Below are positions 2,788 through 31,371 of a stretch of 40,811 nt of DNA, piece after piece. The DNA lies in the NCBI GenBank assembly GCA_018262815.1, contig JADFDN010000012.1, positions 1-40,811 of the forward strand, given 5' to 3'. Both the position numbers and the translations under genes were made by a program. This stretch comes from Thiobacillus sp. (GTDB taxonomy: Bacteria; Pseudomonadota; Gammaproteobacteria; Burkholderiales; Thiobacillaceae). How positions within the stretch are numbered: position 1 is the stretch's first letter; each line of letters begins with the position of its first letter. A model generated the notes under the pieces. It saw nothing but the letters and a program-made list of their open reading frames with translations. It was not told the origin of the DNA and ran no database searches.

Positions 2788-5367
2788 ATGACCACCCAGA
2801 AAATCGCTCGTAATGATCCGTGTCCATGCGGCAGTGGAAAAAAGTACAAACAGTGTTGCCTGTCCTCGGCTGAGCGTCTCGCAAGCCCTGCTTCGGACGC
2901 CATGAAGATTGCCCAGGCCATGCAGACTGCGCACGCGCACCATCAGGCCGGGCGCCTGGCCGAGGCTGAAGCGATCTGCAAAGAGATACTGGCGGTCTCG
3001 CCCCAGCATCCGGATGCCTTGTATCTGATGGGGATGATCGCGTATCAGATCGGCATGCACGATGTGGCCGCGATCTTTTTTGGCAGCGTCATCGAAGTTG
3101 CGCCCCACCTCGCCGATGCCCACAACAACCTGGGGGTCGTGCTGATGGCGCAGGGCCTGGTGGCGGATGCGGCCGCCAGCTACCAGACCGCCATTTCGCT
3201 GCAGTCCGGGCATCCCAATGCGCACTACAACCTGGGCAATGCGCTCAAGGATCTGGGCCGGCTGGACGACGCGGTTGCCAGCTACAAAAAAGCCGTCCTG
3301 ATCACCCCGGACAATGCCGAGCTTCACAACAACCTGGGCGACGTGCTGCAGACGCAAGGCAAACTGACGGAGGCGATCGCCAGCTATCGCAAGGCCCTCA
3401 GAATCAACCCGAATCTGGCCGAAGTGCGCTACAACCTGGCGGATGCGCTCCTGCGGGAAAGCAGGCTGCCCGAGGCGGTCGTCCAGTACCGGGAAGCTGT
3501 CCGCCTCAAGCCGGACCATGCCGAGGCCTACAACAATCTGGCGATTGCGCTGATGAAGCAGGGCGAACAGGACGAGGCGATTGCCTGCTACCGGAAGGCC
3601 ATTGCGATCAAGCCGGACCTGGCCGAGGCGCACTGCAACCTGGGCGATCTGCTCAAGGAGCAGGACAGGCTGGAAGAAGCCGTGGCCAGCTACCGGGAAG
3701 CCATCCGGCTCAAGCCGCGTTACGTCGAGGCCTGCAACAACCTGGCCAATGCACTCAACAAGATGGGCAGGCAGGACGAGGCGATTGCCTGCTATCAGCA
3801 GGCGGTTGCGATCCGGCCGTACGCCGCCGAGCTGCACTGCAATCTGGGGAATACGCTCTATGAACAGGGCCTGCTAACCGAAGCGATCGCGTCCTGCAGG
3901 GAGGCCCTCAGGCTGAGGCCGGACTATGCCGAGGCATGCGACGGCCTGGGGAATGCGCTCAGGGCGCTCGGCCAGCTCGATGAAGCGGTCGCATTCGGGC
4001 GGCAGGCTGTGCTGCTGAAGCCGGAGGATGCCGGCGCCTGCAGCAATCTGGGAAACTCGCTGCGCGATCAGGGCAAGCTGGATGAGGCGGTCGCCTGCTT
4101 CCGGCAGGCCCTCTCGATCCAGCCCGATTCGCCCACCACGTACAGCAACCTGCTGTACACCCTGCAGTACATGAGCACGGTCACGCCGGCGGAGGCGTTC
4201 AGCGAGCACCAGCGCTATGCGGAACGGTTTGAAACCCCCTTCAAGGCGAACCGGATGCCGCACCCGAACAGCCGCGATCCCGAACGACGCCTGCGGATCG
4301 GTTATGTGTCCGGGGACTTCCGCAACCATGCGGTGGCCTTCTTCATCGAACCGATTCTGGCGAGTCACGACAAATCGCAAGTGGAGATTCATTGCTATTA
4401 CAACCATACCCAGCACGATGGCCATACCGAGCGGATTGCTGCCCATGCCGACCACTGGCTGTCCTGCTCGAGGATGAGCGACGAGGCGCTCGCCGATCGC
4501 ATTCGTGCCGACGGCATCGACATCCTCGTCGATCTGTCGGGACACACCGGCTACAACCGCCTGCCTGTTTTCGCCCGGAAACCCGCGCCGGTTCAAGTGA
4601 CGTGGATTGGTTACCCAGGCTCCACCGGACTGACTGCGATGGATTACCGGATTACGAATGAAAGCGTGGATCCCCCCGGACTGACCGAGCGTTACCACAG
4701 CGAGTTGCTGATACGCTTGCCGGACACCAGCGTCGCGTACCGACCCGAGCCGGGTTGTCCGCCCGTCAACCCATTGCCGGCGCTGTCCAGCGGCGAGTTC
4801 ATATTGGCCTCGCTGAACAACCTGATCAAGATCAACCCGTCCGTTGTCACGCTGTGGGCACGCATCCTGGGCGCATTACCGCACGCCAAATTGCTTCTTG
4901 GCAACGTAACGGATAGCGGCGTTCGGCAACGGGTGATCGAACAGTTCGGCCAGGCGGGCGTGGCGACCGATCGCCTGATATTGCAGCCGCGCATGTCCTT
5001 GCACGATTATCTGGCGCTGCACCATCAGATCGATCTGGCGCTCGACCCGTTTCCCTACAATGGCGGCACCACCACGATGCACGCACTGTGGATGGGCGTG
5101 CCGGTCCTCACCCTGGTCGGTGAGCACATGGTGTCGCGCTGCGCGGTTCCATTGCTGTCGCGTGTCGGCCTCGACGAATTCATCACGCACAGCGAGGACG
5201 AATACTTCCAACGTGCCGTGCAGATGGCGCAGGATTTACCTGGCCTGAATCGGATCAGACAATCGATACGTGACAGGATGAGCGCGTCAAGCTGCGAACC
5301 ACGAACCGTCACTCACCATCTAGAAGCGGCGTATCGGGAAATATGGCGGAAATGGTGCGCTGCTTGA
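2788..5367 (+). CDS. SEC-C/TPR/GT41 protein, O-GlcNAc-transferase (SPINDLY/OGT)-like
   Basis: This 859-residue protein has three parts. Residues 9-24 form a SEC-C zinc motif (NDPCPCGSGKKYKQCC; ligands Cys12, Cys14, Cys23, Cys24). Residues ~40-460 hold about twelve tetratricopeptide repeats (repeated LGNALKDLGRLDDAVASYKKAV-type 34-mers, shown here in part). Residues ~500-855 are a GT41 catalytic region: RLRIGYVSGDFRNH (His514, matching the OGT active-site His), LSGHTGYNRLPVFARKPAPVQVTW, SLNNLIKINPS (Lys681, matching the UDP-binding Lys of OGT) and DPFPYNGGTTTMHALWMGVP. GT41 enzymes transfer a sugar from a nucleotide donor to protein Ser/Thr in the cytosol, with the TPR superhelix choosing the substrate. 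FlmG of Caulobacter has the same TPR plus GT layout and modifies flagellin. The target here is unknown; flagellin is a candidate because flagellin genes lie ~25 kb away. It converges with the glycan operon, 26 bases apart. Confidence 0.85.
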   Translation: MTTQKIARNDPCPCGSGKKYKQCCLSSAERLASPASDAMKIAQAMQTAHAHHQAGRLAEAEAICKEILAVSPQHPDALYLMGMIAYQIGMHDVAAIFFGSVIEVAPHLADAHNNLGVVLMAQGLVADAAASYQTAISLQSGHPNAHYNLGNALKDLGRLDDAVASYKKAVLITPDNAELHNNLGDVLQTQGKLTEAIASYRKALRINPNLAEVRYNLADALLRESRLPEAVVQYREAVRLKPDHAEAYNNLAIALMKQGEQDEAIACYRKAIAIKPDLAEAHCNLGDLLKEQDRLEEAVASYREAIRLKPRYVEACNNLANALNKMGRQDEAIACYQQAVAIRPYAAELHCNLGNTLYEQGLLTEAIASCREALRLRPDYAEACDGLGNALRALGQLDEAVAFGRQAVLLKPEDAGACSNLGNSLRDQGKLDEAVACFRQALSIQPDSPTTYSNLLYTLQYMSTVTPAEAFSEHQRYAERFETPFKANRMPHPNSRDPERRLRIGYVSGDFRNHAVAFFIEPILASHDKSQVEIHCYYNHTQHDGHTERIAAHADHWLSCSRMSDEALADRIRADGIDILVDLSGHTGYNRLPVFARKPAPVQVTWIGYPGSTGLTAMDYRITNESVDPPGLTERYHSELLIRLPDTSVAYRPEPGCPPVNPLPALSSGEFILASLNNLIKINPSVVTLWARILGALPHAKLLLGNVTDSGVRQRVIEQFGQAGVATDRLILQPRMSLHDYLALHHQIDLALDPFPYNGGTTTMHALWMGVPVLTLVGEHMVSRCAVPLLSRVGLDEFITHSEDEYFQRAVQMAQDLPGLNRIRQSIRDRMSASSCEPRTVTHHLEAAYREIWRKWCAA

Positions 5368-5393
5368 TTTGAAACGGTGTGCCTGCAATCCGC

Positions 5394-6482
5394 CTATTTC
5401 CTTCGGGGAATGAAGTACATGACCGTTTCATCCGTGCCTTCGGTGTAATGCCTCAAGTGCAGGTCGTAGTCGTCACGAATGGACAGGACTTGTTTGGGGA
5501 TTTTCCAGAAATCGCCCGCCTTGTGGTAGACGGCAATGGCCATTTTGGGATGGTGATTCAGAATCTGCTTGCGGGCTCCTTCAATGGCTGAAGATTCCGC
5601 GCCCTCGATATCCATTTTAAGGAAAGTGATTTTTTCTTTGACCAGATTATCCAGGGCTTCGACGTAAATCGAAACGTCACCGGTATCCGAAATGCTGCTT
5701 GCAGAGCCGTCATGGCTATTGAATTTCAGCTCCGCCGATTGATCCGATAGCCCTTTCTGTATGAAATGGACATTCGAGTAGCCAGACAGATTACGTCTTG
5801 CCAGAGCCAAATTACTTTCAGACGGCTCGAATAAATACACAGCCCTGTAATTCGGACACCGTTTGATAAATTCCAGACTCGTTTGCCCGTCGTATCCGCC
5901 CACATCAGCAAAAACTTCTTCATCCAGCTTCAAGAAATCCGGGAAATACTGCTCATTGGGGATGTAAGCGAATGCTGCCATCAGAGCCAGATTGGCCGTC
6001 ATCCTGTATTCAACAAGAGCGTTAAATATTTCCTTTGATTGAGTGTCGCGCAGCAAATTGAAGACCCATTCAAAGCCATCCCGATTGGTTTCAAATTCTT
6101 TCGCAAAGCTGTCAAATATCCTCAGTCTCAAATCTGGGTTGTTCGCGTGGAGATAGAAGCCTGGGTAATCAAGAATATTCTCAAACCCCTTGGCCCTTAA
6201 CGCGTTGATCGCCGTCACGGTCCGGACTGTTGAGCAGACCAGAACCATGCTGTCTTTTGATATCTGATCCGACTTGAAAACGGGCTTACCTGCGAACGAT
6301 TCGATACCAGCGTAATCGTCTACGAATCCGTGAATGTCGACCAGTTTGCAGACATCCGACGCGTAGCCATCCCGGGATGTCCCCATGATGTATTTTTCCA
6401 CGGGGCAGTCCGGATTCATAAAGTCACGGACGAAGGCTTCATGCCTTTTATTAGGCACGAATTCCAACTCATTTGAACGCAT
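5394..6482 (-). CDS. FkbM-family SAM-dependent methyltransferase
   Basis: A 362-residue protein. Residues ~25-110 form an N-terminal Rossmann-like domain (EKYIMGTSRDGY, then GFVDDY and a GKPVF strand) of the kind often fused to FkbM enzymes in glycan clusters. Residues ~185-330 carry the FkbM methyltransferase: EVFADVGGYDGQTS (SAM-binding loop at ~193), LFEPSESN and KMDIEGAE at 289-296. FkbM enzymes O-methylate hydroxyls of polyketides or sugars. The ATG at 6482 is preferred because GAGG lies 6 bases ahead; an ATG four codons upstream is also in frame. It is the last gene of the minus-strand glycan operon, 17 bases after the ACP gene. Its composition is AT-richer than all neighbours (27 G/C in the 60 bases 5821-5880), suggesting separate acquisition. 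The substrate is unknown; a sugar hydroxyl is most likely. Confidence 0.82.
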   Translation of the reverse strand: MRSNELEFVPNKRHEAFVRDFMNPDCPVEKYIMGTSRDGYASDVCKLVDIHGFVDDYAGIESFAGKPVFKSDQISKDSMVLVCSTVRTVTAINALRAKGFENILDYPGFYLHANNPDLRLRIFDSFAKEFETNRDGFEWVFNLLRDTQSKEIFNALVEYRMTANLALMAAFAYIPNEQYFPDFLKLDEEVFADVGGYDGQTSLEFIKRCPNYRAVYLFEPSESNLALARRNLSGYSNVHFIQKGLSDQSAELKFNSHDGSASSISDTGDVSIYVEALDNLVKEKITFLKMDIEGAESSAIEGARKQILNHHPKMAIAVYHKAGDFWKIPKQVLSIRDDYDLHLRHYTEGTDETVMYFIPRRK

Positions 6483-6499
6483 TGTTTGCCTCATTTGAT

Positions 6500-6766
6500 T
6501 CAGGTTTGCCCTAGCTTCTCTTCGATCAGCGCCACCAGTCCGCCGACGGTCTTGATCCTGTCGCCGAGCATTTCCGCTTCCGACAGCTGGATGTGGAATC
6601 GCTCTTCGATGCGGAAGATGAATTTGATGAAGGCGAGCGAATCGATATGGCCATTTTCGAGATACCGGTAGGCAGCCATCGCCGAATGGTCCGGAACCGC
6701 GCCTTTTTCCTCGAGCAGCTGCACGATGAAATCGTAAGCAGCATGGTTTTTTCCGGTGGGATTCAT
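6500..6766 (-). CDS. Stand-alone acyl carrier protein
   Basis: The 88-residue acidic helical protein has the phosphopantetheine attachment motif HIDSLAFIKF with Ser43 as the predicted modified residue. Its length matches ACPs (75-95 residues). It differs from housekeeping AcpP, whose motif is DSLDTVE, so it is a dedicated carrier. Its start overlaps the stop of the oxidoreductase gene by ATGA, implying translational coupling. Next to an AMP-forming acyl ligase and a NeuD-type acyltransferase, it most likely carries an acyl or aminoacyl group loaded by the ligase for transfer to an amino sugar. Pseudomonas flagellin-glycosylation islands also contain dedicated ACPs. The carried group cannot be read from sequence. 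Confidence 0.85.
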   Translation of the reverse strand: MNPTGKNHAAYDFIVQLLEEKGAVPDHSAMAAYRYLENGHIDSLAFIKFIFRIEERFHIQLSEAEMLGDRIKTVGGLVALIEEKLGQT

Positions 6767-7890
6767 ACCGTTTCCCACTTTCGGGTCCGAGCCGAACGCG
6801 AAACGGCCTCCAGGAAGCGCAAGCCCTCTTCCGACTCCTGGGCGCCATATACGAAATCGTTGCGCGGCGTGATTCCGGATCGATGCTGGCGCAGCTGATC
6901 GGCGATATCGGTATACAGATTGGCAAAGGCCTCGATGAACCCGGAGGGGTGGCCGGATTTGAAGCGGTTGTAGCGCAACTGCCGGGCGAGTCCGGCATCG
7001 TCGGCGCCGCGGTCGATGAGCGACCGGCGTCCGTCGGCATGATTGAGCAGCAGATCCTCGGGCTGCATCTGGAACCATTCGGCGCTCGCCAGGCTGCCGT
7101 AGACGCGGATGCGCAGGCCATTGCGGTTGCCGAGCGCGGTTTTTCCGAACCAGGACTGCACCCGCAGATCGTCCTCGTAATGCGCGAGGCAATAGACGTT
7201 GTCGACGATATCGCCGAACTGGCCATAGGTGGCCTGGTCGCCGATGACCTCCAGCGGCGTCTTGCCGCCGGTCAGGAAGTGAACCAGATGATGGGCGTGG
7301 ACGCCCAGATCGAGCGACACCGTGGGGACGGCATGATCCTTGAGGCGCCAGGCCTGCGGCGCAGCCGCCTGCCGCAGGAAGCCTTCCTGGGGAATTTCGA
7401 CGTGAATCTGCTGGAGATGCCCGAGCCGGCCGTCGGCAATCATGCGGCGCAGTTCGCGCACCATCGGGTAGCCGGAATAGTTGTAGGTCACCGCCAGAAA
7501 GCCCCGGTTGCGCGCCACGGCCTCGCCGATGCCGCGGCATTCGTCGCTGGACACCGCCAGCGCCTTTTCGCAAATGACCGGATAGCCGGCATCGAGCGCC
7601 GCGACGACCATCTCCCGGTGATCCGGCGTGGGCGTCAGCACGACGATGGCATCGAGCTCTCGCGTCTCGCTTTCCAGCAGCGCCCCCCAGCTGGCATGCG
7701 TGCGCTCGGGCGGAATGCCGTAGGTCTGCGCCGTTTCCTCATTGATCTCGGGGCGCCGGCTGAAGCACCCGCAATCGACGCGAAAATGGCCATCCAGCCG
7801 GCTGGAATTGTAGTGCGTGTACCCCACGGCCGAGTTCACGGCGCCGCCGATGAAGCCGAGTCGCAGGGGGGGCTGTTGGGCATGAGCCAT
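6763..7890 (-). CDS. Gfo/Idh/MocA-family oxidoreductase
   Basis: A 375-residue protein with an N-terminal NAD(P)-binding fold (LRLGFIGGAVNSAVG, residues 9-23) and a C-terminal alpha/beta domain. ICEKALAV holds the family's EKP lysine region, with Ala in place of Pro. DLGVHAHHLVHFLTGG supplies the conserved Asp and His residues of the substrate pocket. Family members oxidise or reduce sugar hydroxyls or ketones, often on nucleotide sugars. It begins 3 bases after the ligase stop and overlaps the ACP start by 4 bases, so it is firmly inside the operon. A role in making the sugar, or in reducing the acyl group, are both possible; sequence alone does not decide. The glycine pattern GFIGGAVNSAVG is looser than the usual GxGxxG. 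Confidence 0.82.
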   Translation of the reverse strand: MAHAQQPPLRLGFIGGAVNSAVGYTHYNSSRLDGHFRVDCGCFSRRPEINEETAQTYGIPPERTHASWGALLESETRELDAIVVLTPTPDHREMVVAALDAGYPVICEKALAVSSDECRGIGEAVARNRGFLAVTYNYSGYPMVRELRRMIADGRLGHLQQIHVEIPQEGFLRQAAAPQAWRLKDHAVPTVSLDLGVHAHHLVHFLTGGKTPLEVIGDQATYGQFGDIVDNVYCLAHYEDDLRVQSWFGKTALGNRNGLRIRVYGSLASAEWFQMQPEDLLLNHADGRRSLIDRGADDAGLARQLRYNRFKSGHPSGFIEAFANLYTDIADQLRQHRSGITPRNDFVYGAQESEEGLRFLEAVSRSARTRKWETV

Positions 7891-7893
7891 GGA

Positions 7894-9438
7894 TTATCCT
7901 TGTTGCAGTCCGCTGGAATAGGCCTGCCGAAGTGCGGGTTTGTCGAGTTTACCCAGTGCGTTCCGGGGAAGCGCCGGGACGACGAAGAAACGCCGGGGCT
8001 GCTGGAAGTCCCCCAGGCGCTGCATGCACAGCCGCTGCAGCTCGCGCGGTTCGGGCGGCGCGTCGGGCGCATGAAACGCAACGACCACGCCGACCACTTC
8101 ACCCAGCTGTTCGTCCTGCACCGGGATGGCAGCGCATTCCCGGACTGCGGGATGGGCGGCGACCACGTCCTCGATGTCCTTGGGGTAGATGTTGATTCCG
8201 CCGCAGATGATGATGTCCTTGATGCGTCCGAGGAAGTAGAGGAAGCCTTCGTCGTCCATCCGGCCGAGGTCGCCGGTACGGAAATAGTCCCCCCACATGG
8301 CGGCTGCCGTGGCAGCCGGCTGGGCGTAGTAGCCGCTGAACAGCATGGGCGTGCGGCAAACGATTTCGCCTGCCGTATCCGGCGGCACGGGGTGCCCGTT
8401 TTCGCCGAGGATCCGCACCTCCGTTCCGGGGATGGCGGTGCCGACCGAACCGAGCCTGTGCGAGGCATCCCCGGGCGACAGGTTGGTGGCAATGGCGATT
8501 TCCGACGCGCCGTAGCACTCGTGGAATTCGCCTGGCAGGCGGGCCAGCAGCCCGGCTTTCGTTTCATCGTCCAGCAGCGCGGAAGAAGACACCAGGCAGC
8601 GTAGCGAGGGCAGCGTATCCTGGCTGGACATCAGGACGTCCAGTATCTGCTTGAGCTGCGACGAGACGGCGATGGAGAAGCTCACGCCGTGCCGGCGGAC
8701 CGCAGCGATCCAGGTCGCTGGGGTGAAATGCTCCATGACGATGCTGGTCCCGCCCGAGGTCAACGGCATCAGAACGAGCCGCTGCGCCAGGGAATGGTAA
8801 AGCGGCGTGGCCGCGAGGGTCACGTCGTCGGCGGTGACGCCATACAGCTCGGCGGCGGCGGCGGCGCGCAGCAGCTTGGTGCGCTGGCTGAGGAGAATGG
8901 GTTTGGGCGTGCCGGTGGAGCCGGATGTCAGCACCATGAGATAAGGCAGTTCGCCATGCAGCTGGGGCGCAGCGCGGGGCTGGGCGCGGCCCCTATCGAT
9001 CAGCGTCTGCAGGGATGTCCAGCCTTCGCGGTCCCCGCCGGCCACCACGCGAAGGCTGCCCGGAGGCAGCGGCAGCCCGGAAAGATGGGCCGTGGCGCCG
9101 GACCATGCGATCAGGTGCCGGACATCGGCGGTTCCGAAGGTGGAGGCCAGCGCCTCCGGGCTCAGCCCCATGCTCTGAGGCACGATGACCACGCCAAGGC
9201 GCGCGCCGGCGAGCAGCGTCAGAACAAACTCGGCGCAATTGGGCAACAGCACGCCGATGTGGTCTCCGGCCTGCACGCCCGCCAGCGAGAGGCCATCTGC
9301 CAGCGCATCCACGTCGCGCAGGAGATCGCGATAGGTGCAGCTGGCCTCCCCCACCACGAGCGCCAGCTTGTCCGGGTTCCGTTCAGCGGCGCGCCGGAAG
9401 TGCCCGTAGAGGGGAGCGGGTTGCAATGAGATCGGCAT
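7894..9438 (-). CDS. AMP-forming acyl/aryl ligase (class I adenylate-forming enzyme)
   Basis: The 514-residue product has all core motifs of the ANL superfamily: LTSGSTGTPKP at 170-180 (phosphate loop), YGASE at 309-313 (adenine/substrate), FRTGD at 386-390, RIKDIIICGGINIYPKDIE at ~405-423 (hinge and thioester motif), and the catalytic lysine Lys497 in NALGKLDK. These enzymes activate a carboxylic acid with ATP and load it on CoA or a carrier protein. An ACP gene lies two genes downstream, making acyl-ACP loading plausible. The ATG at 9438 is chosen over a TTG at 9465, which would overlap the upstream gene. It lies 7 bases after the acyltransferase stop. The acid substrate is unknown. Confidence 0.87.
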   Translation of the reverse strand: MPISLQPAPLYGHFRRAAERNPDKLALVVGEASCTYRDLLRDVDALADGLSLAGVQAGDHIGVLLPNCAEFVLTLLAGARLGVVIVPQSMGLSPEALASTFGTADVRHLIAWSGATAHLSGLPLPPGSLRVVAGGDREGWTSLQTLIDRGRAQPRAAPQLHGELPYLMVLTSGSTGTPKPILLSQRTKLLRAAAAAELYGVTADDVTLAATPLYHSLAQRLVLMPLTSGGTSIVMEHFTPATWIAAVRRHGVSFSIAVSSQLKQILDVLMSSQDTLPSLRCLVSSSALLDDETKAGLLARLPGEFHECYGASEIAIATNLSPGDASHRLGSVGTAIPGTEVRILGENGHPVPPDTAGEIVCRTPMLFSGYYAQPAATAAAMWGDYFRTGDLGRMDDEGFLYFLGRIKDIIICGGINIYPKDIEDVVAAHPAVRECAAIPVQDEQLGEVVGVVVAFHAPDAPPEPRELQRLCMQRLGDFQQPRRFFVVPALPRNALGKLDKPALRQAYSSGLQQG

Positions 9439-9445
9439 GCGCAGG

Positions 9446-10126
9446 CTAACGGGCGGACCGGGCAATAAATTGAAGAAAGGCCTGGCTCGACAGCGGGAAG
9501 CGTTCGCCGCTTGCCGAAACGTAGACCTCTTCGGCGAGCGTGTCCCGGGTCACCAGTGTGTTTGCACCCACAAAACACTGTCTTTCGATCCGGATGTTGT
9601 CGCCGATGGTCGCGTTGATGCCGAGGAACGAAGCGTCCCCGATCATGCTTTCGCCTCCGATGGCCACGCCTGAATTGATCCAGCACGCATCGCCGATGCG
9701 GCAGCCGTGGCCGATCGACGCATTGCTGGCGATGAAGACGCTGTTGCCGATCTGCGTATAGGGGTGAATGGCGACATGGTCGAGGACGATGGTGTTCTCG
9801 CCCACGGATACGCCCGGGTGGCGGACGACGGACGAGTGGACGTAGCTGGCGAAGGCGTAGCCCTTGGCCAGTCCTTCACTATGCTTGCGGGCGCGCAAGC
9901 CATTCATTTCCCGATAGCCGACCGCGGTGATCAGACAGTGGTCCGCCGGGGGATATCGGGTCTCCAGCTCCTCGAAGGGGATGACGGGGAGCCCCTCGAT
10001 GACGGGGTCGGCCAGGACGGCGCGGTCGACGGTAAACGCCACGACCTCATGTTCCAGCCGCGCAAAATGCAGAAACATGCGCGCCATCTGGCCGTTGCCG
10101 TAGATGATCAGTTTTTTATTTGTCAT
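9446..10126 (-). CDS. NeuD/PglD-family sugar acyltransferase (left-handed beta-helix)
   Basis: The 226-residue protein begins with a small nucleotide-sugar-binding Rossmann domain (KLIIYGNGQMARM, residues 5-17) and continues from about residue 95 with hexapeptide repeats (VGENTIVLDHVAIHPYTQIG, IGDACWINSGVAIGG) forming a left-handed beta helix. His140 in ASIGHGC sits where the PglD catalytic base is expected. PglD and VioB-type enzymes N-acylate 4-amino-4,6-dideoxy sugars; NeuD O-acetylates sialic acid. The preceding gene is an aminotransferase able to make such an amino sugar, so N-acylation of its product is the natural reading. The presence of a ligase and an ACP suggests the donor may be something other than acetyl-CoA. 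Confidence 0.85.
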   Translation of the reverse strand: MTNKKLIIYGNGQMARMFLHFARLEHEVVAFTVDRAVLADPVIEGLPVIPFEELETRYPPADHCLITAVGYREMNGLRARKHSEGLAKGYAFASYVHSSVVRHPGVSVGENTIVLDHVAIHPYTQIGNSVFIASNASIGHGCRIGDACWINSGVAIGGESMIGDASFLGINATIGDNIRIERQCFVGANTLVTRDTLAEEVYVSASGERFPLSSQAFLQFIARSAR

Positions 10127-10198
10127 CGCCGTCGTCCGACAGGTGTGCGAACACGCACGCCCTGCCTGTTTTCTGCATGATTCTGTGTGCCGGCTGCA

Positions 10199-11314
10199 TT
10201 ATTGCACCGCAATCAGCTGGGCGATGGTTTCGATTTGCGCATCGTCCAGGGCCGGATAAATCGGCAGGCACAGTATTTTTTGTGCTGCCGCGACCGCGAC
10301 CGGAAGGTTGTCCTGGTGCGCCGACGGCAGCCCCCGATACATCGAGAAGTCCGAAATCAGCGGATAAAAATAGCGGCGCAGGTGGATGCCCTTGTCCTTG
10401 AGTTTCTGGTGAAGCCCGTCACGGCTGATCGGATAATCCGAATCGACCAGAATCGGGAAATAGGCGAAATTGGGAACGTTTTCCCGGTGAGCCTGCATGC
10501 ATCGAATTCCGGCCACGCCCTCCAGACGTTGACGGTAGGCCGCGTCGATTTCCTTGCGACGGCCAAGTGCCATGTCGATATGTTTCAGCTGAAGCAAACC
10601 GAATGCGGCGTTGATCTCGCTCATCTTGCCATTGATGCCGGGCGCAACGACCGCCAATTCATCCACGAAACCGAAATTTTTCAAATGATCGATACGGGTT
10701 TTGGTTTTTGCATCGGGACAGACGATGGCACCGCCTTCGAAGGTATTGAACACCTTGGTGGCATGGAAGCTCAGCACCGACAAATCTCCATGCCTGAAGA
10801 TGCTGCCGCCCGCGTCGCGCACCCCGAAGGCATGCGCGCCGTCATAAATGACCTTGAGGTTGTAATTGTCGGCGATGGTCTGGATGGCTTCGACATCGCA
10901 GGGACGGCCATAGCAATGCACGGGCATGATGGCTGTGGTGTGCGGCGTGATTGCGGCTTCGATCTTGGCCGGGTCGAGATTGAGCGTATCGGGGTCGATG
11001 TCGACGAATACGGGTTTGATGCCGTTCCATAGCAGAGAGTGCGAGGTGGCCACGAAGGAATACGGTGTGGTGATGACCTCGCCGGTGATTCGCAGTGATT
11101 GCAATGCCGTGATCAGCGCGATCGTGCCATTGGTGAACAAGGCGATGTGATCGACTCCCAGGTATTCGCACAGCGCCTGTTCCAGCTGCTGATGGAAGGG
11201 GCCATTGTTGGTGAGCTGCTTGCTCTCCCAAATCTTCTCCAGATAGGGGATGAACTCGTCCAGCGGCGGCAGGTAGGGTTGCGTGACGTAGATGTGTTTT
11301 GGATCAGTGCTCAT
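10199..11314 (-). CDS. DegT/DnrJ/EryC1 aminotransferase, VioA-like (dTDP-4-amino-4,6-dideoxyglucose synthesis)
   Basis: A 371-residue PLP enzyme of the DegT family. Lys187 in SFHATKVFNTFEGGA is the predicted Schiff-base lysine, Asp158 in IYDGAHAFGV contacts the PLP ring nitrogen, and FTNGTIAL at 60-67 is the phosphate-binding loop. The combination YDGAHAFG plus SFHATKVFNTFEGG is closest to VioA-type enzymes, which turn dTDP-4-keto-6-deoxyglucose into dTDP-viosamine using glutamate. Assignment to VioA rather than another DegT subgroup is moderate. It is the first long gene of the minus-strand glycan operon, followed 72 bases later by the acyltransferase. The genes for dTDP-4-keto-6-deoxyglucose (rmlA, rmlB) are not in this window. 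Confidence 0.85.
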   Translation of the reverse strand: MSTDPKHIYVTQPYLPPLDEFIPYLEKIWESKQLTNNGPFHQQLEQALCEYLGVDHIALFTNGTIALITALQSLRITGEVITTPYSFVATSHSLLWNGIKPVFVDIDPDTLNLDPAKIEAAITPHTTAIMPVHCYGRPCDVEAIQTIADNYNLKVIYDGAHAFGVRDAGGSIFRHGDLSVLSFHATKVFNTFEGGAIVCPDAKTKTRIDHLKNFGFVDELAVVAPGINGKMSEINAAFGLLQLKHIDMALGRRKEIDAAYRQRLEGVAGIRCMQAHRENVPNFAYFPILVDSDYPISRDGLHQKLKDKGIHLRRYFYPLISDFSMYRGLPSAHQDNLPVAVAAAQKILCLPIYPALDDAQIETIAQLIAVQ

Positions 11315-11450
11315 CGATTAACCCTGACAACTCAATCGTGCGCTGCAGGAGAACAGTGTGCCCAGGGATCTGCTGTCGACTCCTGTTAGGGACATCACGC
11401 CAGTGAGCGCCATTGTTGCGGCCTGCCTCGTGTTCGCGCACCTCGATCAT
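11304..11450 (-). CDS. Possible 48-residue leader or small protein overlapping the aminotransferase start
   Basis: An ATG at 11450 follows AGAGGA with a 7-base gap. The frame encodes 48 residues (MIEVREHEAGRNNG... ending LSGLIDEH) and its TGA overlaps the first 11 bases of the aminotransferase gene. The overlap suggests coupled translation. I do not recognise the peptide. It may be a real small protein, a remnant of a lost gene, or a chance frame. Confidence 0.28.
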   Translation of the reverse strand: MIEVREHEAGRNNGAHWRDVPNRSRQQIPGHTVLLQRTIELSGLIDEH

Positions 11451-14278: not shown

Positions 14279-15781
<1,503 letters not shown>

Positions 15782-16042
15782 GGAGTCTCCTTCCGGACGG
15801 CGCCGCAGCGCGAACGCCGCAAAGCGAAAATCTCAGTTTAGCGCCTGTACGCGGACCGTTCGTCTTTCTGCCCTCCCCTGCCCCGGCAGCCAGGCCGGCC
15901 ACGGCAACCTGCCGGCGACCAGGAACAGCGCGAGCGGAAGACGTGAATATCGCGGCGATGGAGCGCGAAACTGGACACCGCGTGCGGATCGCATAGCATG
16001 CAGAAGAGATCCGCCAGGCCAACCCGCCCGACCGACGACGAC

Positions 16043-16297
16043 ATGATCCCCATCCACGAACTGCTCAACCGGATACGCTGGGACGCCGCATTCGCGCAGG
16101 GCCGCTTCGTGCTCGACTATTACGACCGGGTGGACGGCCGCCTGGTGCGGGTGCCGATCAGCCGGGTGCAGCAGGTGCCGGGGGATCATTTCGCCTTCCA
16201 GGTCACCGACGACGACGGCGCCACGCACGACGTGCCCTTCCACCGGGTCAGGGACGTATACAAGGACGGCGAGCTGATCTGGCACCGCAGATATTAA
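16043..16297 (+). CDS. DUF504 family protein
   Basis: The 84-residue protein matches the DUF504 (MJ0043-type) family: MIPIHELLNRIRWD, then LDYYDRVDGRLVRVPISRV, VPFHRVRDVYKDGELIWHR. The family is small (75-90 residues), found in archaea and bacteria, and its function is unknown. The ATG at 16043 is preferred because family members begin with MIPI; an in-frame ATG 15 codons upstream (15998) would add an unconserved basic tail. About 90 bases separate it from the HD-GYP gene, and the two may be cotranscribed. Confidence 0.8.
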   Translation: MIPIHELLNRIRWDAAFAQGRFVLDYYDRVDGRLVRVPISRVQQVPGDHFAFQVTDDDGATHDVPFHRVRDVYKDGELIWHRRY

Positions 16298-16386
16298 GCG
16301 GCCACGGCTGCACGGGCGTGCAGCCGTGTCGGGCGGTCACGGCCTGCCGTACAATCCGGCCATAGCGTGCAGGATGGAATACCGCC

Positions 16387-17529
16387 ATGTCATCAGCCTT
16401 CTTGTTCGATCACGAGGACAGACTCGGTCCGCTCGGGCGCAATGTCCGCCTGGTGGACAAGGTACGAACGATCCACGCTGCACTGCGCGAGCGCTTTCCC
16501 TTCATTCAGCGCATTGCGGCGGCCGTCTTCGACCCGGAAGCCGACACGCTCGAGACCTTCCTCTACACCGGCGAGGAGGACAATCCGCTCACGCATTATT
16601 CGGCCAAGCTGGACGACGCGCCGTCGCTGCGGGAAATCCTCGAGAAGGGGCGGCCGCGCGTCGTCAACGACCTGGCCATTTTTTCCCGCGGCCAGCACGA
16701 GCACACCCGGCGCGTCGGCGCAGAGGGCTACCGGGCCAGCTACACCCTGCCGATGTATCACCAGGGCCGGCTGTTCGGCTTTCTGTTCTTCAATTCCTAC
16801 GATGCAGACTGTTTCAGCGAGGAAACGCTGCGCCAGATCGATCCCTTCGGGCATCTGATCGCGCTGACCATCATCAACGATCTCACCTCCCTGCAGACGC
16901 TGCTTGCCACCGTGAAGACGGCGCGGGACATGGCTCACGCGCGCGACGACGAGACCGGCTCCCACCTCGACCGCATGTCGCGTTTCGCGCGCGTCATCGC
17001 GCTGAGCGTGGCGGACCGATACGCGCTGACCGACGAAACGATCGAGAAGATCTTCATTTTTTCCCCGCTGCATGACATCGGCAAGATCGCGATTCCCGAT
17101 CGCGTACTGCTGAAGCCCGGCAAGCTCGATCCCGACGAGGAGGCGCTGATGCAGACCCATCCGATCCGCGGGCGCGACATGATCGACCAGATGCTCGCGC
17201 ACTTCCAGGTGGGCCAGATCCAGGGCAGCGACATCCTGCGCAACATCGCCCTGTTCCACCACGAAGCCATCGACGGGACGGGCTATCCGCACGGGCGCTC
17301 AGGCATGGACATCCCGATCGAGGCCCGCATCGTCGCGGTGGCCGACATCTTCGACGCCCTCACCAGCCGGCGTCCCTACAAACCGGCCTGGAGCAATGAC
17401 GAGGCCTTTGCCATGCTGCGCCAGCTCGCGGGCAGGAAGCTCGATGAACATTGCGTGAATGCGCTGATCGACAACCGCGCGGACATCGAAGCCATCCAGC
17501 AGCAGTTCCAGGAAAACATCATGGGCTGA
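16387..17529 (+). CDS. GAF-type sensor with HD-GYP c-di-GMP phosphodiesterase domain
   Basis: A 380-residue soluble protein. Residues ~20-165 look like a GAF domain (ERFPFIQRIAAAVFD, then MYHQGRLFGFLFFNSY). Residues ~175-375 form an HD-GYP domain with complete motifs: ETGSHLDRM at 189-197, HDIGK at 229-233, HHEAIDGTGYP at 291-301 and DIFDALTSRRPYK at 320-332. All metal ligands and the GYP signature are present, so it should be an active phosphodiesterase that degrades c-di-GMP to GMP, with activity tuned by the GAF domain. The ligand is unknown. Degrading c-di-GMP generally favours swimming, which fits the flagellar cluster in the same window. Confidence 0.9.
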   Translation: MSSAFLFDHEDRLGPLGRNVRLVDKVRTIHAALRERFPFIQRIAAAVFDPEADTLETFLYTGEEDNPLTHYSAKLDDAPSLREILEKGRPRVVNDLAIFSRGQHEHTRRVGAEGYRASYTLPMYHQGRLFGFLFFNSYDADCFSEETLRQIDPFGHLIALTIINDLTSLQTLLATVKTARDMAHARDDETGSHLDRMSRFARVIALSVADRYALTDETIEKIFIFSPLHDIGKIAIPDRVLLKPGKLDPDEEALMQTHPIRGRDMIDQMLAHFQVGQIQGSDILRNIALFHHEAIDGTGYPHGRSGMDIPIEARIVAVADIFDALTSRRPYKPAWSNDEAFAMLRQLAGRKLDEHCVNALIDNRADIEAIQQQFQENIMG

Positions 17530-17588
17530 ATCCGGCTTGCCGCCGCACCGCCGCAGCTTTGCCATGTTCAAACAAGAAAGGGGCGCAC

Positions 17589-18227
17589 GTGTTCCACAAC
17601 CGCAACGAAGCCGCCGACCGCCTGGCCATCGCGCTGGGGGCCTACAAGGGACGCAATCCGCTGATACTCGCGATTCCGCGCGGAGCGGTGCCGATGGGTC
17701 AGCGGCTGGCCAGGGCGCTGGACGGCGAGCTCGACGTGGTGCTGGTGCGCAAACTGCGCGCGCCGTTCAATCCGGAGTTCGCGCTCGGCTCGATCGACGA
17801 ATCGGGCTGGAGCTACATCGCCGACTACGCCGAATCGGCCGGCGGCACGCCGAGCTATCTCGCCCAGGAAAAGCAGGCCCAGCTCGACACCATCAGAAAA
17901 CGTCGGGCGCAGTACACGCCGCTGAGGCCGCCGATCGACCCGGCCGAGCGCATCGTCATCGTGGTCGACGACGGGCTGGCGACCGGGGCGACGATGATTT
18001 CCGCGCTGCATGCGCTGCGCGCGCAGAAGCCGGCGCGCCTGATCTGCGCGGTGCCGGTGGCGCCGGCGGACACGCTGGAAAAAATCCGCGGGTATGCAGA
18101 CGAGGTGGTGTGCCTGTCGACGCCGCAATTCTTCCAGGCGGTGGGGCAGTTCTATGCGGACTTTCCGCAGGTCGACGACGACGAGGTGATCGAGATTCTG
18201 CGAAAGACCGGGCAGGCCCGGGACTGA
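17589..18227 (+). CDS. Phosphoribosyltransferase family protein
   Basis: The 212-residue protein has the PRPP-binding signature IVIVVDDGLATGAT (about 122-135) and the N-terminal family stretch NPLILAIPRGAVPMG. The start is a GTG at 17589, with AGGGG 5 bases upstream. Proteins of this subgroup are often linked or fused to dienelactone-hydrolase-like proteins; one such hydrolase lies at 22585-23235. The exact base substrate is unknown, and the group is not one of the classical salvage enzymes. It converges with the efflux adaptor gene, 3 bases apart. Confidence 0.8.
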   Translation: MFHNRNEAADRLAIALGAYKGRNPLILAIPRGAVPMGQRLARALDGELDVVLVRKLRAPFNPEFALGSIDESGWSYIADYAESAGGTPSYLAQEKQAQLDTIRKRRAQYTPLRPPIDPAERIVIVVDDGLATGATMISALHALRAQKPARLICAVPVAPADTLEKIRGYADEVVCLSTPQFFQAVGQFYADFPQVDDDEVIEILRKTGQARD

Positions 18228-18230
18228 ATC

Positions 18231-19424
18231 TCAGCGCAGCTTGACCCGCGCGCCGTCCTTGATCGTCTCGTCCGGATGCGCCACCACCGCATCGCCTGCC
18301 TTGAGGCCCGACAGCACCTGCGTCGCCAGCCCGGCGCGCTGGCCGATCTCGACCGGCACCCGGCGCGCGCGGCGGCCGTCGATCACGAAAACCGCCCAGC
18401 CTTCGCCCTGCCGGAACAGCGCGCTGGTCGGCAATTGCAGCACATCCCTGCCCTCCCACAGCACGAATCGCGCCTCGACGCGGTAGCCGTCGCCGAGCCG
18501 CGCCCACGCTTCGCGCGGCGAGCTGAAATCGACGATGACGCGCACCCGCTGTTCCTCGACGCCGAGCGCGGATATCTTGGTGAAGCCGCTCGGCTCGACC
18601 ACGCGCACCGTGCCCGTGACCGGCCGATCACCGCCCCAGCGGTCGAGGATGACTTTCGAGCCGGGCGCAATCTTCACCGCGTGGGTCGACAGCACCTCGA
18701 CCTCGACTTCGAGGCTGGCGGGGTCGCCGATTTCGAGCAGCGGCTGGCCGGCTGCCACCGCGCCCTCGCTTTCGTGCTGCAGTTTCAGCACGTGCGCGGC
18801 GACCGGCGCGTAGACCTGCACGACTTCGGCCGCGCCGCCGGCCTGCAGGCGGGCGGTGCTGGCCAGCGCCGCCCGCGCCGTCTCGAGGTCGAAGCGCGCC
18901 ACCCGCACCGCATGCTGCGCGGCGGCATCGACGGCGCGGGCGCGCGTTTCCGCCGTGCGCGCGGTATCGAGCGCCTGTGCCGACACGAAATTGGATTGCC
19001 GCAGCGACTCGGCGCGCGCACGCTCCTGCTGCGCCAGTTGCGCGGCGGCTGAAGCGGCACGGGCGTTGGCCTGCGCAGCGGCGAGCGCAGCCTGGGCGGC
19101 ACTGGCCTGCCCCTGCGCCTGCGCGCGGGTGCGCGGATCGAGCGCCACCGAACGCGCCGGCTCGATGACCGCGATCACCTGCCGCGCGGCGACGGCGTCG
19201 CCCGCCTTGAGATCGATGCGACGCACGTAACCCGCCACCGGCGCCGACACCGCGTAGCGTTCGGTGACGCGGGTCTTGCCCTCCTCCTCCACCGTCACCG
19301 CGAGCGGCCCGCGCGTCACCTCGGCGACGTCGACCGGCACGGCACGCGGCATGAAGCCGAGTGCGAGGCCGCCCGCCACGACGGCGAGGATCGCCAGCAT
19401 TCCGATTTTTGCGCGCAGTTTCAT
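18231..19424 (-). CDS. HlyD/MacA-type periplasmic adaptor of an ABC efflux pump
   Basis: A 397-residue membrane fusion protein. Residues ~6-25 are an N-terminal membrane anchor (IGMLAILAVVAGGLALGFM). A lipoyl half-motif follows (VSAPVAGYVRRIDLKAGDAV), then a long Ala/Gln/Arg-rich coiled coil (~95-190). The second lipoyl half comes next (VYAPVAAHVLKLQHESEGAV) and beta-barrel domains to the end (WEGRDVLQLPTSALFRQGEG). Such adaptors link an inner-membrane transporter to an outer-membrane channel. It is the last gene of the operon, 15 bases after the permease. No TolC-like gene is adjacent. The substrate is unknown. Confidence 0.87.
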   Translation of the reverse strand: MKLRAKIGMLAILAVVAGGLALGFMPRAVPVDVAEVTRGPLAVTVEEEGKTRVTERYAVSAPVAGYVRRIDLKAGDAVAARQVIAVIEPARSVALDPRTRAQAQGQASAAQAALAAAQANARAASAAAQLAQQERARAESLRQSNFVSAQALDTARTAETRARAVDAAAQHAVRVARFDLETARAALASTARLQAGGAAEVVQVYAPVAAHVLKLQHESEGAVAAGQPLLEIGDPASLEVEVEVLSTHAVKIAPGSKVILDRWGGDRPVTGTVRVVEPSGFTKISALGVEEQRVRVIVDFSSPREAWARLGDGYRVEARFVLWEGRDVLQLPTSALFRQGEGWAVFVIDGRRARRVPVEIGQRAGLATQVLSGLKAGDAVVAHPDETIKDGARVKLR

Positions 19425-19439
19425 GCGGAGTTGCCCGTC

Positions 19440-21809: not shown

Positions 21810-21819
21810 ACCGGGATGC

Positions 21820-22554: not shown

Positions 22555-22584
22555 GCCATGCCGCCTTGCGGGCGGCCAGCCCGC

Positions 22585-27403: not shown

Positions 27404-27440
27404 CGGCATAATCAGTCAATACCAAAAGCAGAGAATTTTC

Positions 27441-28088: not shown

Positions 28089-28090
28089 GG

Positions 28091-28135
28091 TTCGAGCGCA
28101 AGGTTCGGGACGCAAGAAAAACCTTGCCGCTCGAA
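28091..28135. repeat. Long imperfect inverted repeat between the response regulator and cyclase genes
   Basis: The left arm TTCGAGCGCAAGGTT (28091-28105) pairs with AACCTTG-C-CGCTCGAA (28120-28135), 15 bp with one bulged C, around a 14-base loop. There is no T-run after it, so it is not a standard terminator. Its TTCRAG..GCAAG vocabulary resembles the element at 37166-37250. Confidence 0.7.
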
Positions 28136-28254
28136 TCCCGCATCTCACTTTGGAATTGACAGGGTTTCCCCGCCCTAATCCGCCCTTCACCCGCCCCCTG
28201 AGCGCCCTACCATGCGAGGCATAGAGAAGGCCCCGACCGGGCCAAGGCGCGCAC

Positions 28255-29883: not shown

Positions 29884-29912
29884 CGATCATGCAGATTTTT
29901 GAGTTGTCAGCC

Positions 29913-29939: not shown

Positions 29940-30033
29940 CTCTCACAACGGCGGTTCATGTAGCCCCAGCGGCCAGACCAACGTTGACGGCACCAGAGAG
30001 CCGGAACCCTCGACCCACCAAGGAGAAAACATC

Positions 30034-30687
30034 ATGGCACAAGTAATCAACACCAACGTAGGCGCCCTGTTTGCCGGCGCCGCACTGAACAAGTCGGCCG
30101 TCGCCCTGCAGACCGCCCAGGAGCGCCTTTCCTCCGGCCTGCGCATCAACAGCGCCAAGGACGACATCACCGGCCTCGGCATCGCCACGGCCTACGACAC
30201 CCAGATCCGCGCCGCGAACGTGAACATCCGCAACGCCAACGACGCCATCTCGACCGCACAGACCAACGACGGCTACCTCGGGCAGATCACCGAGAACCTG
30301 CAGCGCATCGCCGAAGTGCTGGTCGGAACCCCCGCCGGCACCGCTGAGACGACTGCACTGATCGCCGAGAACACCCGCATCAATGCCCTGATCTCAACGG
30401 GCGCTCCCACCTTGACCGGCACCATTGCCAGCGTCGCATCGGATCTGGCCGCAGTCGGCACCGCCCGCGCAGCCTTCGGTGCCACCATGGCCACCAAGGC
30501 TTCCGAAGTGGCCACCCTGCAGATCAGCGCGGTGAACCTGTCGGCCGCCTACAGCCGGATCATGGATACCGACTACGCCGCAGAAACCACGGCGCTGGCC
30601 CGCAACAACATTCTGCAACAGGCGGGTACGGCCATGCTGGCGCAAGCCAACCAGACCCCGCAAAACGTGCTGACGCTGCTGCGTTAA
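30034..30687 (+). CDS. fliC1: Short flagellin 1
   Basis: A 217-residue flagellin. Residues 1-97 match the flagellin N-terminal D0/D1a region (MAQVINTN, ERLSSGLRINSAKDD, ITENLQRI). Residues 149-217 match the C-terminal D1/D0 region (NLSAAYSRIMDTDYAAETTALARNNILQQAGTAMLAQAN). Only about 50 residues join them, where ordinary flagellins have a full second D1 helix, a beta hairpin and usually D2/D3. The joining segment is Thr/Ser/Ala-rich (GTPAGTAETT, STGAPTLTGT) and could carry O-glycans. The ends needed for export and polymerisation are intact. AAGGAG lies ahead of the ATG. It is exported by the flagellar type III system and should form filament together with the second copy, 24 bases downstream. 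Confidence 0.93.
   Translation: MAQVINTNVGALFAGAALNKSAVALQTAQERLSSGLRINSAKDDITGLGIATAYDTQIRAANVNIRNANDAISTAQTNDGYLGQITENLQRIAEVLVGTPAGTAETTALIAENTRINALISTGAPTLTGTIASVASDLAAVGTARAAFGATMATKASEVATLQISAVNLSAAYSRIMDTDYAAETTALARNNILQQAGTAMLAQANQTPQNVLTLLR
30477..30683 (+). repeat. 207-base direct repeat, copy 1 (3' part of fliC1)
   Basis: By eye, this stretch is base-for-base identical to 31161-31367 in the second flagellin gene. Identity ends at the last base of the final Arg codon (CGT versus CGC). It points to recent duplication or gene conversion. Confidence 0.85.
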
Positions 30688-30711: not shown

Positions 30712-31371
30712 ATGGCACAAGTCATCAACACCAACGTAGGCGCCCTGTTTGCCGGCGCTGCACTGAACAAGTCGGCCGTCGCCCTGCAGACCGCCCAGGA
30801 ACGCTTGTCTTCCGGCCTGCGCATCAACAGCGCCAAGGACGACATCACCGGCCTCGGCATCGCCACCGGCTACGACACCCAGATCCGCGCCGCGAACGTG
30901 AACATCCGCAACGCCAACGACGCCATCTCGACCGCACAGACCAAGGATGGCTACCTCGGACAGATCACCGAGAACCTCCAGCGCATTGGCGAGATTCTGG
31001 TCGGAACGCCCGCAGGCAATGCGGAAACCGCAGCGCTGATCCTGGAAAACAACCGTATCAGGACGCTTGAAGGAGGCGCGGCCCTTACTGCCTCCGGTAA
31101 TGGCACCGCTGCGCAGGTTGCCGCTGATCTCGTGACGATAGGAGCTGCACGCGCCGCGTACGGTGCCACCATGGCCACCAAGGCTTCCGAAGTGGCCACC
31201 CTGCAGATCAGCGCGGTGAACCTGTCGGCCGCCTACAGCCGGATCATGGATACCGACTACGCCGCAGAAACCACGGCGCTGGCCCGCAACAACATTCTGC
31301 AACAGGCGGGTACGGCCATGCTGGCGCAAGCCAACCAGACCCCGCAAAACGTGCTGACGCTGCTGCGCTGA
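30712..31371 (+). CDS. fliC2: Short flagellin 2
   Basis: A 219-residue paralogue of the preceding flagellin. Residues 1-100 differ at only a handful of positions (for example Ala53 to Gly, Asn78 to Lys) and the last 69 are identical. The ~50-residue centre is clearly different (NAETAALILENNRIRTLEGGAALTASGNG, shown in part), so variation is concentrated in the surface-exposed joint. TAGGAGAA precedes the ATG. No terminator lies between the two genes, so they are probably cotranscribed. It carries the same loss of the outer D1, D2 and D3 parts. The two copies may form mixed filaments or act in different conditions. Confidence 0.93.
   Translation: MAQVINTNVGALFAGAALNKSAVALQTAQERLSSGLRINSAKDDITGLGIATGYDTQIRAANVNIRNANDAISTAQTKDGYLGQITENLQRIGEILVGTPAGNAETAALILENNRIRTLEGGAALTASGNGTAAQVAADLVTIGAARAAYGATMATKASEVATLQISAVNLSAAYSRIMDTDYAAETTALARNNILQQAGTAMLAQANQTPQNVLTLLR
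31161..31367 (+). repeat. 207-base direct repeat, copy 2 (3' part of fliC2)
   Basis: Identical by eye to 30477-30683; the pair lies in the same orientation 684 bases apart, so recombination could delete one flagellin and leave a chimera. Confidence 0.85.

Follow-up and report, generated by a model that had tools for sequence, protein, structure and literature searches.

A candidate flagellin glycosylation island in Thiobacillus with a SPINDLY-related glycosyltransferase and a putative acyl cassette

Flagellin of Burkholderia cenocepacia is said, from work by Hanuszkiewicz in 2014, to carry a single N-acylated 4-amino-4,6-dideoxyglucose on several sites. In Pseudomonas syringae, the available text of two papers describes flagellin glycans containing 4-(3-hydroxybutanamido)-4,6-dideoxy-2-O-methylglucose, for which vioA, vioB, vioT, vioR and vioM are needed (PMC3927599, PMC3958885); the order of genes in this viosamine island is given as vioA-M-T-S-B-R-acp (PMC3927599). 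The FlmG protein of Caulobacter is described, in the sections available, as a cytoplasmic TPR-glycosyltransferase whose TPR part binds flagellin and whose donor is pseudaminic acid, in an organism with no Maf orthologue (PMC7591256). For enterobacterial flagellin islands, the accessible part of a 2016 survey lists GT41 with a SPINDLY domain, DegT, NeuD, an acyl carrier protein (ACP), a CaiC ligase and FkbM (PMC4875605), and the corresponding part of a study on Shewanella oneidensis includes an ATP-grasp protein and a methyltransferase in the flagellin-modification operon (PMC3765264). Here we describe an island of seven genes on contig JADFDN010000012.1 of Thiobacillus sp., analysed over its whole length of 40,811 nucleotides (the window; contig C33, positions 1-40811, of a 2.5-Mb assembly in 168 contigs that is 82% complete). 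Judged from its genes, this is probably a flagellin glycosylation island, in which an operon would make an acylated 4-amino-4,6-dideoxyglucose and a GT41 protein would put it on flagellin. The genes, and the two flagellins proposed as acceptors, are as follows.

2788..5367, plus strand: SEC-C/TPR/GT41 (SPINDLY-like) protein glycosyltransferase, 859 aa (Glyco_transf_41, E 9e-59)
5394..6494, minus strand: FkbM-family methyltransferase (PF05050, E 3e-15; TIGR01444, E 2e-21; 2py6, E 4e-23)
6500..6766, minus strand: acyl carrier protein, 88 aa (PF00550, 25.7 bits, cut-off 20.8)
6763..7890, minus strand: Gfo/Idh/MocA oxidoreductase (PF01408, PF22725 and PF02894 above cut-off)
7894..9465, likely start 9438, minus strand: AMP-forming acyl-CoA/acyl-ACP ligase (PF00501, E 6e-72; PF13193)
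9446..10126, minus strand: NeuD/PglD/PerB-type hexapeptide acyltransferase (TIGR03570, 149 bits, just below the curated cut-off of 160.8)
10199..11314, minus strand: DegT/DnrJ sugar 4-aminotransferase, DesI-like (PF01041, E 1e-100)
30034..30687, plus strand: short flagellin 1, 217 aa, proposed acceptor (PF00669/PF00700)
30712..31371, plus strand: short flagellin 2, 219 aa, proposed acceptor (PF00669/PF00700)

Six of the genes form a minus-strand operon from 11314 to 5394, in the order DegT, NeuD, AMP ligase, Gfo/Idh, ACP, FkbM. The gaps between them are 72, 7, 3, -4 and 5 bp when the ligase start is taken as 9438, a start favoured by the codon score; the same 514-aa start is predicted in several relatives. 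The GT41 gene (2788-5367) converges on FkbM from the plus strand, 26 bp away, and the island is flanked by HflX on one side and by HIT-FeoB on the other. The original prediction, made from this DNA alone, had named all seven gene families, a tight operon and a convergent SEC-C/TPR/GT41 gene, and Pfam and NCBIfam recovered each of these in its place; of the extent then given, 2788-11450, the start stands, and the end moves to 11314, where DegT begins. The short flagellins expected about 19 kb away are also present, 18.7 kb from DegT. Since the island genes recur together in other Thiobacillus genomes, at 74-96% identity (65-92% for GT41), and in other Proteobacteria, at about 30-77%, the grouping is not due to chance.

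We infer the chemical steps, which would run as follows, as well as the nature of the acyl group, the place of methylation and the role of flagellin as acceptor. The dTDP-4-keto-6-deoxyglucose would come from RmlA and RmlB, whose genes lie elsewhere in the genome, next to flhDC. An rmlBACD-manC run lies directly before flhDC on contig C92 of the same genome (locus L192, 9230-20000), and downstream of flhDC are motB and flhB, identified by Pfam, and open reading frames (ORFs) that by eye resemble motA and flhA. The RmlB is genuine (TIGR01181, 503 bits, cut-off 365), and dTDP-4-keto-6-deoxyglucose is therefore available in this genome; the position of the rml genes beside flagellar genes could be an old arrangement without relation to the island. 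The DesI-like DegT would then aminate C4 to yield dTDP-4-amino-4,6-dideoxyglucose, which is the product of DesI. Among solved sequences DesI itself is the best match (2PO3, 240 bits), with perosamine synthase next at 161 bits; by sequence the enzyme is thus DesI-like rather than VioA-like, as it had first been called, while the product expected is the same as for VioA.

A small carboxylic acid would be activated by the AMP ligase and loaded onto the dedicated ACP, whose attachment-site Ser stands in a DSL motif (HIDSLAF in the translation). The ligase matches acyl-CoA ligases, and its specificity is not clear from sequence. Gfo/Idh would help to make or adjust the acid loaded on the ACP. Its closest solved structure is 3v5n (171 bits), the top entries being named merely as oxidoreductases; K109, D194 and H198, the Lys, Asp and His that typically serve in catalysis, fall in columns that are invariant across seven homologues. 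NeuD would move the acyl group to the 4-amine in amide linkage; it is closest to the perosamine N-acyltransferase PerB (4ea7, 65 bits), and an H-x-C-R-x-G segment aligns, which surrounds the catalytic His of PerB. FkbM would O-methylate either the sugar or the acyl group. Cytoplasmic flagellin would be captured by the TPR domain of the GT41 protein, and the catalytic domain would transfer the finished single sugar to Ser/Thr of flagellin before export. The tandem flagellins (30034-31371) are closely similar, the main difference being residues 93-150, where Ser and Thr account for 13 of 58 positions in flagellin 1 and 7 of 58 in flagellin 2; these counts say only that candidate sites exist.

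The GT41 protein, the sole one found in its genome as assembled (82% complete), has SEC-C at aa 8-25, many TPRs and a Glyco_transf_41 domain (Pfam). Its catalytic domain scores 300 bits with Arabidopsis SPINDLY (AtSPY, 7y4i), 298 bits with Thermobaculum OGT (TtOGT, 5djs) and 187 bits with human OGT. H495, N661, K665, Y744 and T748 of SPY are kept as H514, N677, K681, Y757 and T761, and the position of S496 is occupied by Ala. In the 13 other GT41s compared, the His, Tyr and Thr are kept throughout and the Lys in 12, with Arg in L140. The TPR array, together with a GT41 domain carrying SPINDLY's important His, Lys and Thr, places the protein in the SPINDLY/OGT type. SEC-C was dropped as a defining feature: apart from the window's protein it occurs in 4 of the 13 homologues examined, all of them from the Thiobacillus islands closest to the window's. 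The MptE-like Pfam model, the only proxy used for Maf, had no match in the window's genome; among 14 control genomes it matched archaea only, and for that reason the lack of a bacterial Maf is unproven.

According to the available text of a structural study on SPY, K665 is essential and a Tyr at 744 is incompatible with UDP-GlcNAc (PMC9715652). With Tyr757 at that position, UDP-GlcNAc is unlikely as the donor of the window's GT41. This bears on the proposal that the transferase acts on flagellin with some other donor, for example GDP-fucose or UDP-GlcNAc, the product of the operon being added on top or used elsewhere. The closest characterised enzyme does use GDP-fucose, as far as the text of that study is available (PMC9715652), and the donor is not readable from sequence. 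The position of the GDP-stacking His, however, varies among the 14 aligned sequences, in a column that is poorly aligned, and the window's island holds no second transferase. We regard transfer from another donor as very unlikely.

In another Thiobacillus genome (G339, locus L065) all seven genes lie between a kinase-regulator pair and GGDEF-fliC-flaG-fliD, with identities to the window of 77% for GT41, 75% for FkbM, 74% for ACP, 85% for Gfo/Idh, 79% for the ligase, 84% for NeuD and 86% for DegT. In the window the counterparts of kinase, regulator, GGDEF and fliC form an unbroken run (25931-31371), with the island 18.7 kb away, whereas in L065 (688-14673) it sits between regulator and GGDEF; the island therefore has two alternative sites in one neighbourhood. 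In L071 (G347; public contig L112) an island with a variant tail is followed by GGDEF and the beginning of fliC, and a GT41-DegT-ATP-grasp-FkbM-Gfo/Idh set precedes GGDEF-fliC in L085/L115 and L086/L116. DegT-GT41, with other genes, adjoins fliC-flaG-fliD in L074; in L087 the pair is 15 kb from fliC, and a NeuD (40%), a gene of ACP size and a ligase that is more distantly related (27%) occur in the same stretch. The predicted link between island and flagellin is thus borne out, by the complete island beside GGDEF-fliC in L065 and by the related islands flanking fliC in L071/L112, L074, L085/L115 and L086/L116: sugar genes and a protein glycosyltransferase are linked to flagellin in all of these and in the window.

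Among the 117 genomes of the family, DegT is present in 28, Gfo/Idh in 11 and the AMP ligase in 8, including the window's. In 20 of the 28, a GT41 is no more than 16 kb from DegT, and in 12 of them the two are 78-111 bp apart. Seven genomes have DegT without a linked GT41 (G300, G319, G359, G258, G295, G268 and G281), the DegT of G258 and G281 being on a short contig or at a contig end; in G316 DegT and GT41 are on different contigs. The original prediction had proposed a search for co-occurrence with short flagellins. All 20 genomes with a GT41-linked DegT have a Flagellin_N match, against a family background of 91/117, as do 8/8 with the AMP ligase; the Flagellin_N model also matches FlgL-like proteins. 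Most of the 20 are of the short-flagellin type: within the genus, GT41-linked DegT occurs in 19/31 genomes with short flagellin, 1/13 with long flagellin and 0/12 without flagellin, the 56 genomes having been assigned to these classes by hand from a printed table, with weaker full-length matches taken as FlgL. G338, with a FlgL-type match only, was placed among the 12 and G299, with both types, among the long, while G340, G341, G313, G327 and G347 have fragments, which were classed as short. When these five are left out, DegT is found in 17/26 short-flagellin and 1/13 long-flagellin genomes (Fisher, p 0.0007, relatedness ignored). G299, the sole long-flagellin genome with a linked DegT, also has a short flagellin (267 aa predicted) beside its island. 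By a rough count typed from tables, with relatedness ignored and G347 added from locus L071, 9 of the 80 GT41 loci of the family are within 20 kb of a flagellin match, compared to 1.1 expected; the count is 8 without G292, whose flagellin match is weak and whose locus has no fliC match.

Beyond the family, a scan of GTDB contigs with a Gfo/Idh alignment confirmed at least 543 relatives, of which the best 80 were kept. Among these 80, 27 have the ligase and 11 have the full set of NeuD, ligase, Gfo/Idh and ACP. All seven parts are present in Janthinobacterium lividum (L121), where a flagellin gene lies 6.9 kb past FkbM, in an Oxalobacteraceae metagenome-assembled genome (MAG; L132), in the same convergent order, and in Novimethylophilus (L119), where GT41 was confirmed. 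L121 also has another large GT41 (1070 aa) and, after it, a piece of a DegT gene (together 15716-19270), just before the flagellin gene. In a Gallionellaceae locus (L127), DegT-NeuD-ligase-Gfo/Idh-ACP-FkbM lies 2.2 kb ahead of two fliC genes, and a methyltransferase-like gene separates ACP from FkbM; a GT41 could be missed here, since the contig ends at DegT. GT41 labels were assigned to 8 of the 11 full-cassette loci, that of L137 (24%) without a Pfam match. A flagellar gene is present in the examined stretch of 14/27 ligase-bearing loci vs. 7/53 without ligase (p 0.0004), Pseudoalteromonas or Colwellia contributing nine of the 14. Flagellin was sought in the genomes of 44 of the best 80 loci, with L117 and L150 left out, and 18 of the 19 searched genomes that have both Gfo/Idh and ligase gave a Flagellin_N match.

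Several observations weigh against a strict flagellar role. The island of the window is 18.7 kb from fliC and not adjacent to it, 11/31 short-flagellin genomes have no DegT, and in G303, a single 3.0-Mb contig, the DegT-GT41 pair is more than 1 Mb from its flagellin matches. A flagellar gene is near just 5 of the 11 full-cassette loci among the best 80, the other six showing no such linkage, and 1/19 ligase-bearing genomes is flagellin-negative (L162). So are seven of the 25 searched genomes that have Gfo/Idh without ligase, six of them Fibrobacter and one Moraxellaceae. DegT orthologues without a Flagellin_N match or a linked GT41 are found in G300 and G319, near group 1/family 2 glycosyltransferases, and L114, L132 and L140 each have a family 2 glycosyltransferase close to the cassette.

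On one rival reading, the GT41 would modify cytoplasmic or surface proteins other than flagellin, its linkage to fliC being a by-product of a shared hot spot. The transferase is of the SPY/OGT type, and eukaryotic OGT and SPY act on many proteins; in the family, 71 of 80 GT41 loci, many of them on short contigs, have no flagellin match within 20 kb, and the G303 pair is far from its own. That GT41-linked DegT is confined to Flagellin_N-positive genomes (20/20), and that positions adjacent to fliC are seen in several genomes and arrangements, makes other acceptors unlikely. Alternatively, the operon could feed a sugar nucleotide into O-antigen or exopolysaccharide, with GT41 as an unrelated neighbour, and the glycosyltransferases near DegT in G300 and G319 and near the cassette in L114, L132 and L140 would fit this, as would a Gfo/Idh-FkbM pair in a polysaccharide-synthesis-like cluster of G031 (L019; read by eye). 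Yet in 12 genomes 78-111 bp separate GT41 from DegT, the convergent arrangement of GT41 and operon recurs in L065 and L132, and there is no such glycosyltransferase family in the window's island or among the window ORFs scanned; a polysaccharide role for the operon is accordingly rather improbable in our judgment. Other glycosyltransferase, flippase and polymerase families were absent from the 38 window ORFs scanned with Pfam, wzx/wzy not being sought by name; two of these ORFs (22558-23358, plus, and 25940-27409, minus) are probably on the wrong strand, and the edge gene from 40480 was left out. The claim that other glycosyltransferases are lacking therefore holds for the window and fails for the more distant relatives L114, L132 and L140.

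Two of the markers used were rejected. DegT alone does not mark a flagellar island, as G300 and G319 carry it with neither a Flagellin_N match nor a linked GT41. Gfo/Idh was given up as an order-wide marker: at 1e-30 it matched 15/250 genomes, including the window's, and of the 14 other loci (L019-L032) only L019 and L020, at about 42% identity, had FkbM, while NeuD, ligase, ACP and fliC had no match in any of the 14. The other 12 loci represent more distant Gfo/Idh genes, so that these weak homologues are uninformative. A search of the class for the AMP ligase at 1e-90 returned the window's own genome alone (1/369). Fibrobacter homologues of Gfo/Idh have 52-53% identity (L120, L122, L123, L125, L126, L130 and L180); the six genomes searched, all but that of L180, are flagellin-negative, and the oxidoreductase therefore probably has non-flagellar uses too. 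In L114 (11520-13919) and L140 (15585-17879) a family 2 glycosyltransferase is fused to a radical SAM domain.

The proteins of the proposed acyl pathway appear to have travelled together. For NeuD, ligase, Gfo/Idh and ACP, the distances of any two are correlated, in all six pairs (rho 0.60-0.83, 12-27 taxa, 0/500 permutations as high); species relationships contribute to this and to every other distance correlation given here. DegT-ACP (rho 0.16, 77/500 permutations) and ligase-FkbM (0.13, 47/500) are uncorrelated. Intermediate values were obtained with DegT (DegT-FkbM 0.48, DegT-NeuD 0.46) and with FkbM (NeuD-FkbM 0.42, ACP-FkbM 0.32, Gfo/Idh-FkbM 0.26). The values for Gfo/Idh-DegT (0.65) and ligase-DegT (0.55) count on the other side: since the distances of these two also track DegT, shared descent explains part of the correlation. 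We read NeuD-ligase-Gfo/Idh-ACP as four co-inherited genes that would form an acyl cassette.

Gfo/Idh and the AMP ligase are also found in flagellar regions of Pseudoalteromonas (L143-L145, L151, L153, L155, L159 and L182). In L143, the one checked, they accompany Polysacc_synt_2 (PseB-type), NeuB, ACP and FkbM, and constitute part of a nonulosonic-acid cluster, not of an island for dideoxyglucose. Gfo/Idh is assigned to the acyl chemistry because of the correlated distances and because Gfo/Idh and ligase occur together on two sugar backbones. A wider reading is possible, although we hold it to be doubtful: an undescribed portable acyl cassette, in which Gfo/Idh would make an unusual, perhaps sugar-derived, acid for the ligase and ACP, may be used on two backbones, namely in the 4-amino-4,6-dideoxyglucose islands with GT41 and in the pseudaminic-type flagellar clusters of Pseudoalteromonas, with GT41 using a dTDP-sugar on flagellin in the former. 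We know of no GT41 for which dTDP-sugars are the donor class.

The tail of the operon is variable. The compared genes of G316 are 92-98% identical to the window's, except ACP (85%), and HflX-GT41 and DegT-HIT-FeoB lie on separate contigs; the place of the window's FkbM is taken by a tail, interrupted by the contig end, that consists of a class III aminotransferase, a different FkbM and an Fe-ADH. These tail genes are 80-89% identical to their counterparts in Thiobacillus thioparus L066, and in L066-L068, L071 and L103 the variant tail continues with a further methyltransferase (PF13578). The window's type of FkbM is found, among other Thiobacillus genomes, only in G339. Its GC content of 47.7%, against 64.8% for the window, and the different tail in so close a relative as G316 suggest that the tail of the window was exchanged recently. 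Natural variants with swapped tails, either FkbM alone or class III aminotransferase-FkbM-Fe-ADH-methyltransferase, thus exist in related species, including T. thioparus DSM 505, and genes could be assigned to glycan features by comparing flagellin masses across strains.

The remaining genes of the window encode an HflX-type GTPase, HIT, FeoB (read by eye), an aldehyde dehydrogenase, a GAF-HD protein, an HlyD/FtsX/ABC set, a radical SAM protein, Memo-AMMECR1, a histidine kinase, a response regulator and GGDEF, followed by the two short flagellins, FlaG, FliD, FliS, FliT, FliK, YcgR, CheV (CheW-receiver), FliE, FliF and FliG. The HlyD-like protein, FtsX-like permease and ABC ATPase (18231-22554) make up an exporter set near the radical SAM and Memo-AMMECR1 genes. 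A scan for sigma-70 promoters (0 found vs. 2.9 expected) and terminators (4 vs. 7.0 expected) was uninformative.

The locus is a compact candidate for flagellin O-glycosylation by one transferase with an acylated amino sugar, and the transferase comes from the OGT/SPINDLY family, which eukaryotes use for regulatory O-glycosylation. With Arabidopsis SPINDLY and Thermobaculum OGT (7y4i, 5djs) it shares the TPR and GT41 domains, the catalytic residues and the Tyr at the position governing donor size. It differs in being encoded beside a sugar pathway of its own, with flagellins nearby, and the donor expected is dTDP-linked, compared to GDP-fucose for SPINDLY. FlmG of Caulobacter, according to the sections available, is likewise described as a TPR-glycosyltransferase (PMC7591256). 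No family of the NeuB/PseB type, as in an FlmG-type pseudaminic pathway, is among the seven island genes, to which this search was confined.

The viosamine island of P. syringae resembles the present one, as far as its published description is available, in having a C4 aminotransferase, an acyltransferase (VioB), an ACP, a methyltransferase and a transferase, all equivalents by predicted function; its flagellin glycan has an O-methylated 4-acylamino-4,6-dideoxyglucose as the terminal sugar (PMC3927599). Where that island has a 3-oxoacyl-ACP synthase III and a reductase, the window has the AMP ligase and Gfo/Idh; VioT adds the sugar to rhamnose, whereas the one GT41 here probably acts directly on protein; and the methyltransferase is VioM there and FkbM here (PMC3927599). 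By Pfam and NCBIfam, none of the seven island genes is a 3-oxoacyl-ACP synthase III (VioS), a reductase of the VioR kind or a VioT transferase.

Closest in content are the enterobacterial islands, which in the accessible text have six of the seven part types at the flagellin locus, with amination, methylation and acyl decoration proposed (PMC4875605). The parts are listed there across island types, and the comparison is by list, not island by island (PMC4875605). Most enterobacterial GT41s carry a methyltransferase domain, according to the same text; none is among the 25 best Pfam families for the window's GT41. The words Gfo and oxidoreductase are absent from the main text of the survey (PMC4875605), and a Gfo/Idh protein is present here. 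The suggestion that this exact combination had not been described has to be narrowed: the same seven parts occur in the Oxalobacteraceae MAG, J. lividum and Novimethylophilus, and six types in the survey, as far as available (PMC4875605). No other description of such a gene set came to light in the literature searched, subscription papers being mostly outside the search. The general kind of system is known, and the version with a SPINDLY-related transferase and an extra oxidoreductase looks undescribed. What is new here is the co-inherited NeuD-ligase-Gfo/Idh-ACP cassette, which occurs in further Proteobacteria as well and is not always beside flagellar genes, together with an exchangeable tail.

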